DNA of 34,559 nucleotides from Bacillota bacterium (GTDB lineage Bacteria; Bacillota; SHA-98; UBA4971): positions 1 through 34,559 of the forward strand of contig JAAYXB010000031.1 in NCBI GenBank assembly GCA_012516125.1, given 5' to 3'. Under the pieces are notes generated by a model. The model was not told the origin of the DNA. It did not search any database and saw only the letters and a list, made by a program, of their open reading frames with translations. A program made the position numbers and the translations under genes. This document shows positions 4,549 to 31,650 of the stretch, one piece after another; position 1 is the stretch's first letter; every line of letters starts with the position of its first letter.

Positions 4549-4883
4549 GGTGAAGCGATGCCGGGAAAAGTAGAACATGAGGCAAAGACGATGAGAGGGA
4601 AGAGTAGGCCGCCTCTGGAGTGAAGCGAACCGAGGCTGGTGAAAGTCGGGGCTCGATGGCTGCCGAAAATCACCCTTGAGTTGCGGCGCGAAATCGCCCG
4701 CTCTTCGCGGGCTGAGAGTAGACGTCGCCGGATCCTCCCGATATAGAGGCAGGGCATACGCGTACCTGGGGAGCCCTTCAGGTGGGCTGTGCCTGCGAGA
4801 GGGCTGCGAGGAACGCAGCCAAGCCGGGTGGTACCGCGGGAGGTTTGCCTCCCGTCCCTTGTCGTGGGACGGGAGGCTTTTGG
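4549..4883 (+). promoter_or_regulatory. T-box leader (tRNA-Ile sensing) of ileS
   Basis: The leader has the conserved T-box landmarks. Stem I opens with agacgatgagagggaagagta (first part at 4586-4605). The distal part has ggctggtgaaagtc, and the specifier region reads gaaaATCacccttgagt with specifier codon ATC (4669-4671), an isoleucine codon. The T-box bulge sequence ggtggtaccgcgg is at 4827-4839, followed by the competing terminator. In the known mechanism uncharged tRNA-Ile pairs with the specifier codon and with the T-box, stabilises the antiterminator and allows transcription into ileS. Specifier identity and gene identity agree. Confidence 0.95.
4847..4881 (+). terminator. T-box controlled intrinsic terminator
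   Basis: A 12-bp perfect stem (gcctcccgtccc 4847-4858 with gggacgggaggc 4866-4877), 7-nt loop, then TTTT. Its 5' flank overlaps the T-box antiterminator sequence, as expected for a mutually exclusive pair. Confidence 0.92.
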
Positions 4884-20414: not shown

Positions 20415-20678
20415 CTAAGTGAGGGTGCAGAAATGCTCTCGGTTATTGGAAGGGGTTGGCGGCGATTGCACCAGGGGTGTCGAAATCCGGCCACTCGCCG
20501 GAGGGGCCGGACTTTGGCGAAGGGCGCCCCGTTCGGGGCGCCGTCCCCGAGTGCAACACCGGCAACCCGGCAGCTACTGGCAAAGGGGCCAAGAACCAAC
20601 GCGCGCGTGCTTGAGCGCTTCGGCGCGTCGGCGGTGCGGCGGGGGAGGATCCGCGGCATATCGGCCTTTCTCGCTTAA
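20415..20678. repeat. MITE-like element, copy 1 (right end eroded)
   Basis: The left end CTAAGTGAGGGTGCA (20415-20429) equals the inverted repeat of the element at 24749-25061. About 175 bp of body (to about 20590) align at high identity with it, including the hairpin ggcgcccc-gttc-ggggcgcc and the block caacaccggcaacccggca. Beyond that the copies diverge. ctcgctta at 20670-20677 may be the remnant of the right terminal repeat. It fills the gap between divergent ylbJ and rssA. Confidence 0.75.
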
Positions 20679-24707: not shown

Positions 24708-24748
24708 CGGCCACCTTGACGAGCTCTCACGTCGGGGTGGCCGTTTTT
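24708..24748 (+). terminator. Intrinsic terminator of ylbN-rpmF
   Basis: Outer stem cggccacc (24708-24715) with ggtggccg (24736-24743), inner pairing gacg/cgtc, then TTTTT (24744-24748). The MITE-like element begins at the next base. Confidence 0.9.
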
Positions 24749-25061
24749 CTAAGCGAGGGTGCAGAAATGATCCCTACTTGTGGAAGGGCTTGCCGGTGAT
24801 TGCGCGAGAGGTGTCAAAATCCGGGCACTGGCCGCACGGGCCTGATTTTGGCGAAGCGCGCCCCGCTTGGGGCGCCGTCCCCGAGCCCAACACCGGCAAC
24901 CCGGCAACCACTGGAAAGGGGACGGCAACTGATGGACGAGACTGTTGATGTTTCCCACATTATGGCAAAGCAGCCCTGCTGAATTGCGTAAAACCGCCGC
25001 CGCGCTCGGCCAGACTACCAGCTGCTGGGGAAGTTCAACAGTCTCATGCACCCTCACTTAG
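24749..25061. mobile_element. MITE-like element with 15-bp terminal inverted repeats, copy 2
   Basis: 313 bp. Left end CTAAGCGAGGGTGCA (24749-24763), right end TGCACCCTCACTTAG (25047-25061); reverse-complemented they match at 14 of 15 positions. No transposase frame fits inside. TA dinucleotides sit next to both outer bases, as expected for Tc1/IS630-type target use. The interior has a conserved hairpin (gcgcccc-gctt-ggggcgc) and, near the right end, an 11-bp inverted repeat (gagactgttga near 24938, tcaacagtctc near 25035). Confidence 0.75.
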
Positions 25062-25394
25062 CAGGTGCAGCGCGAGGGATGGTGGTTTTCCTACCATTGT
25101 CGAAAGCTTACCTGTCTTTTCATGCGGGTCGTTTTGCGACCGCTTGCCCCGGCCCGGCTTGTAGGGTGGTCACGATCCGACCAGGTCTCCTCGCAAGAGT
25201 AGTAGCTTGGCTCTCACCTGCTGCGGTCCTTCTGGCCGTTTCCTGACCATCCGCCGGACCCGCCGCTCCAGGTGGTTAGAATCCGTCCACCCTCGGGGGT
25301 CAAGCTGGCAGGTTTCCGACCATTTTGGCCGGCGAGTGCCATCGAGTGAGGTGGCCCCTCGTCCCCGCGTGACGCGGGGTCTGGCGGTTCGGGC
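25062..25394. other. Gene-free region upstream of the fapR promoter with several hairpins
   Basis: No coding sequence is credible. Inverted repeats include gcgggtcg-ttttg-cgaccgc (from about 25116) and the perfect 7-bp ccccgcg-tga-cgcgggg (25363-25379), none with a T run. There is no clear promoter other than the one immediately downstream. Confidence 0.5.
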
Positions 25395-31484: not shown

Positions 31485-31650
31485 GTGAGCATGAGGGGTA
31501 TCAAGCCCGGCTACTCGCCCGAGGGGCTGGATTCTGGCGAAGCTCGCCCGCGGCGCGCTTCCGCCTCCGTGGGATTCGGCGCTCAAGCTTGTCGGATCGC
31601 AGAGGTCTCGTCGCGCGGACACCGGCAACCCGACACATGCCGGCGACTGG
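31481..31650. repeat. Diverged third copy of the dispersed repeat
   Basis: Blocks align with the elements at 20415 and 24749: ggggtatcaagcccggctac and the following gaggggctggattctggcga (31495-31540), and acaccggcaacccga near 31619-31634. The middle hairpin and the right terminal repeat are not conserved. The left edge ctgagtgag resembles ctaagtgag and contains the fabF stop. The rest of the gap to rnc (31651-31790) has a short direct repeat (aatgaagcca / agtgaagcca) and no gene. Confidence 0.5.

Follow-up and report, generated by a model that had tools for sequence, protein, structure and literature searches.

A probable nest of two miniature transposable elements between rpmF and fapR in a Bacillota bacterium

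The DNA between rpmF and fapR at positions 24749-25061 of the window (the whole stretch analysed, 34,559 nucleotides long) very probably consists of two DNA transposons, both non-autonomous, one nested in the other: a miniature element (MITE) of the IS630/Tc1 type, here called A, holds within one of its ends a second MITE, B, that would be served by a different transposase, one targeting CTAAGT-type ends. The initial annotation had taken this stretch for a single element, a reading that was right in kind but missed that two different MITEs are nested here. Its total length of 313 bp stands, though it is not the unit: A measures 199 bp (with a short form of 126 bp), and the remainder consists of B (108 bp) and a 6-bp duplication.

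The composite lies on the forward strand and, as first noted, starts directly behind the T tract (TTTTT, 24744-24748) that closes the rpmF terminator; the L32 identity of the rpmF product was confirmed by Pfam. Its 15-bp ends, CTAAGCGAGGGTGCA (24749-24763) and TGCACCCTCACTTAG (25047-25061, the right terminal inverted repeat, which reads CTAAGTGAGGGTGCA on the reverse strand), match at 14 of 15 positions when inverted, and no transposase is encoded between them, both as originally described; the longest open reading frame, called mechanically, has 102 amino acids and runs on the reverse strand across A, B and both ends. TA had been proposed as flanking the element, and TA is indeed the target, but it lies inside the quoted ends (C-TA-AG...CT-TA-G, at 24750-24751 and 25059-25060), the full target being CTAG. 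The inner core of A, with a three-way-junction fold, spans 24785-24906, and B occupies 24938-25045, bounded by GAGACTGTTGA...TCAACAGTCTC and flanked by the two copies of its target duplication, ATGGAC (24932-24937) and ATGCAC (25046-25051, equal to positions 11-16 of A's right end), which agree at 5 of 6 bases. The relatives reported near rssA and rnc were also found on the forward strand, namely a second copy of A with a decayed right end at 20415-20613, before a patatin/rssA-like gene, and a third copy, of which a decayed core lies between fabF and rnc (31489-31635). Between A and fapR, positions 25131-25336 are 76% similar to G001:C36:4266-4471 and are possibly another repeat.

A search of the bacterium's own genome (G000; 3.24 Mb, a draft, as are all six genomes of the genus), allowing up to 2 mismatches, returned 279 ends of A (141 + 138) compared to 5 (4 + 1) for the reversed pattern that served as control, which rules out a chance match of the ends. 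This bacterium carries about 140 copies of A, and many contigs of its assembly terminate within one. The left part of A alone recovered ~40 further copies at 84-90% identity, and copies with both ends exist. Alignment of copies together with their flanks set the unit at 199 bp (197-200), bounded by CTAAGTGAGGGTGCA...TGCACCCTCACTTAG, while the 126-bp short form keeps both ends and lacks the inner part. Searches for A in phages and for its end pattern in viral contigs gave no match to either.

Joined flanks of 16 A copies were then compared to two relatives, and uninterrupted sites corresponding to four loci (L013, L018, L016 and L007) were found in the sister species G004. These sites read CTAG at three loci and CTGG at one, and so A inserts into C-TA-G and duplicates TA; a preference of IS630 for CTAG is indicated by an entry in the reference list of PMC2170065 (Tenzen and Ohtsubo 1991). 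The rpmF-fapR junction itself contains A in the bacterium studied here and, in a form truncated by a deletion, in G004, and is without A in four of the six genus members (G001, G002, G003 and G005). An ancestral intergenic feature, with no other both-ended copy and the same sequence at orthologous loci, is thus not what we found; the high copy number, the CTAG empty sites, the absence of A in relatives and an IS630 remnant described below bear out the MITE-like character and the Tc1/IS630-type movement originally suggested. Rough gene calls place A between tandem, divergent and convergent genes alike, and in either orientation, among too few copies to judge an orientation bias. At seven loci (L007, L011, L015, L018, L032, L037 and L052) a roughly called reading frame ends in the stop codon formed by A's tip; where the CTAG target includes a TAG stop codon, a stop would survive the entry of A.

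We infer that A's transposase is of the IS630/Tc1 type: A would be a 199-bp MITE mobilised in trans by such an enzyme, cut and pasted into the TA of CTAG, here behind the rpmF terminator. In place of the full-length insertion sequence (IS) with the same ends that had been anticipated, only a remnant with related ends was found. Matches to DDE_3 in the bacterium's own genome, its family and its class were checked for CTAAGT ends, and no intact IS630 with A-type ends was found in 17 genomes of the class, draft assemblies included; multi-copy ISs are often missing from draft assemblies. The own genome does contain a 391-bp IS630 remnant (L062, 1404-1794) with related ends, CTAAGTAAGAGCGCATAAGTTTTCGAC...ACTTAG, and with the IS630 C-terminal motif LPCCMPQLNPAEKIWWRLK. 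A comparison by eye gave 20 of 27 shared positions between its CTAAGT-type end and the right end of A. This remnant may be regarded as a lead to A's partner, short of proof.

Element B constitutes a family of its own, with a length of 108 bp, 11-bp terminal inverted repeats and a 6-bp duplication, and has 26 matches in each of G000 and G004 and a smaller number in three further members of the genus. We scored the flanks of 62 both-ended copies for CTAAGT (at most 1 mismatch) at distances of 6-59 bp, and a CTAAGT-type end lay exactly 16 bp from B in 48 flanks, compared to 0-4 at other distances; 13 of the 62 copies, many of them diverged, had no such end at these thresholds. The 49 end-like flanks comprise 42 distinct 16-mers, include left and right ends and hold B in both orientations (27:22), indicating that the insertions are largely independent. 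Likewise, 37 of 58 B flanks matched an A end at 10 or more of 16 positions (0.37% at random positions) and 33 of 58 had a duplication matching at 5 or more of 6 (1.06% at random positions), figures that include copies of shared ancestry across species (L104 and L144 look orthologous).

Insertion of B into A is proven at two loci by B-free sites in the sister species, since at L113/L344 and L082/L345 the corresponding A copies of G004 lack B, and the comparison gives CTGAAC and CTGCAC as the duplications; a further pair, L048/L347, was left out as ambiguous. At L097 the own genome has a 140-bp end-B-end arrangement at a site where the A of G001 is complete and lacks B, and recombination between two B copies, one in each end of A, would explain this form. 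Such ~140-bp forms with the interior of A absent were seen at L097 and L104/L144, and at L092 (G000:C98:4330-4572) B occurs away from an A end, as tandem copies and as fragments. No longer element with B ends was found: unpaired B ends belonged to copies with diverged partners or to a mosaic, the 732-bp pair of B ends at L237, in which no transposase frame could be seen by eye. B had no match in plasmids.

Could the 313 bp nevertheless be one MITE family without any nesting? Both 15-bp ends do pair, and copies of 307 and 314 bp exist (L042 and L048), but these hold B in the left end while the window copy holds it in the right, the usual copy length is ~199 bp, and in G004 the same copies of A lack B, and so a single 313-bp unit is ruled out by copy lengths and pre-insertion sites, and we give it next to no credence. 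Hardly more credible is the notion that B's register is nothing but a safe haven, with A as neutral intergenic ground and B persisting wherever it does no harm. A does make up a sizeable share of the non-coding DNA, where insertions would be expected to survive best, yet this account leaves the one fixed distance (48 flanks at 16 bp against 0-4 elsewhere) unexplained and is strongly disfavoured. The question of what B recognises within the end of A is less one-sided. B enters where the paired stem of A's end stops, ~14-16 bp from the tip, and entry of ISs into REP palindromes has been described (PMC1525189), both of which are consistent with recognition of a folded end, hairpin or cruciform, in place of the CTAAGT sequence. 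B, however, keeps its 16-bp spacing from CTAAGT also where the remaining bases of the end differ (L062, L120, L238 and L125), both in end types other than A's that share its architecture and at two places, L062 and L120, with no obvious MITE and no obvious partner end nearby, and so we consider folded-end recognition unlikely, if still worth keeping in mind, and favour recognition of the CTAAGT sequence. Outside A-type ends CTAAGT occurs 8 times in 162 kb, or ~160 times genome-wide by extrapolation, and this rarity means that a transposase reading CTAAGT would mostly meet IS630-type ends.

A further proposal, which would add to the MITE reading of A, is that its core is a functional RNA under host selection, for instance a processing site for read-through from rpmF into fapR. 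Positions 37-158 of A recur at 84-90% identity in a second genus within the family and at ~70% in another family of the class, and in these relatives the outermost ends are altered but mostly still of the CTAAGT type. Members folded one by one gave a three-way junction, and covariation in its helices extends to a further genus and to a second family within the class: among 26 sequences, 11 of 33 pairs had both sides changed, compared to 5.0 in shuffles (none of 500 as high), in an alignment where one arm of the third group is off by a column and that arm is therefore under-counted. Pairing held in 98.1% of cells and fell below 50% when partners were slid by 1-3 columns. The predicted structure is conserved, at the DNA or the RNA level, and transcripts of Correia/NEMIS have been proposed as RNase III sites (PMC2229807). 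The pairing is accounted for equally well by foldback at the DNA level, though, and A's occurrence in both orientations and in all three gene settings (by rough gene calls), as well as its absence from the rpmF-fapR junction of four relatives, speak against a host RNA. Rfam, searched with the window, likewise gave no match to A. We therefore regard a functional RNA as improbable, slightly more so than folded-end recognition by B. The sole Rfam match in the window is a T-box leader elsewhere, at 4582-4862 (94.9 bits).

On the preferred reading of a nest with sequence-directed entry, B would be moved by a separate, putative transposase, probably of the DDE type and with a 6-bp stagger, that reads CTAAGT-type IS630 ends and cuts 11-16 bases from the tip; it would land in ends of A repeatedly, and in the window did so in A's right end. 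The same ends also appear to receive a third family, C, of 139 bp, with ends CYCATTTTCCGCA and a 5-bp duplication, which we found in the flanks of some A copies (for example G000:C22:27998-28136; loci L350-L373 in G000, G001, G002 and G004). Thirteen of its 24 matches, among them the majority of those whose ends are intact, have CTAAG or CTTAG as their direct repeat (L368 by eye), which places C within the five terminal bases of an end, usually one of IS630 type; the copy at L370 has the duplication TACAG instead. At L360, the locus of L090, both families occupy a single end of A, C at the tip and B at position 16.

It is quite conceivable, if short of probable, that in this lineage two or more unrelated miniature elements, B (at positions 11-16) and C (at positions 1-5) among them, have IS630-type ends as their dedicated target, and that their transposases evolved to recognise the end of a foreign transposon. 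If true, this would constitute a layered chain of parasites in which each insertion also disables the ends of its host element, and a copy of A with B or C in its end may be locked in place. Such copies offer a natural way of following how a MITE burst might be limited by nesting, and with two miniature families in several species, clean duplications and, for B, pre-insertion sites, the choice of target is directly testable.

Among known systems, RUP of Streptococcus pneumoniae (107 bp, ~100 copies, TA target, foldback, associated with IS630-Spn1) resembles A as a short IS630-type MITE for which mobilisation in trans by an IS630 transposase has been proposed (PMC2229807). A differs from it in its length of 199 or 126 bp, its covarying three-way-junction core and its unrelated ends, and whereas RUP is reported to enter ISs, a fixed position in the end of another element is absent from that review (PMC2229807). 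Correia/NEMIS of Neisseria is, like A, a high-copy foldback MITE with terminal TA and a long and a short form, but differs in sequence and ends, and its description holds no such nest (PMC2229807). For B, the closest likeness is to IS4321 and IS5075 of the IS1111 family, which enter the terminal inverted repeats of Tn21-family transposons site-specifically (Partridge and Hall 2003, as cited in PMC11187229) and so are also mobile elements that target the terminal inverted repeat of another transposon. IS4321, however, belongs to the autonomous DEDD elements, its repeats are subterminal and its targeting is RNA-guided, in contrast to B, a MITE of 108 bp whose repeats are terminal and whose duplication has 6 bp, features that make a DDE-type mechanism more likely. 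The inverted repeats of B do not fit the IS1111 group, where they are subterminal and have asymmetric extensions (PMC11187229), whereas those of B are terminal and abut the 6-bp duplications. Several ISs that target REP palindromes (ISPa11, ISPpu9, ISPpu10, ISPsy8, ISRm19 and ISRm22; PMC1525189) share with B the site-specific entry into an abundant small repeat, but here a MITE is the invader, and what it enters is the end of another MITE, one of IS630 type. The part of the openly licensed literature that was sampled yielded no description of a bacterial MITE that enters another MITE's end at a fixed site, and the end sequence of B brought up unrelated papers. Site-specific invasion of transposon ends is already known for a few autonomous ISs, and what is new here is that the invaders, B and C, are miniature.
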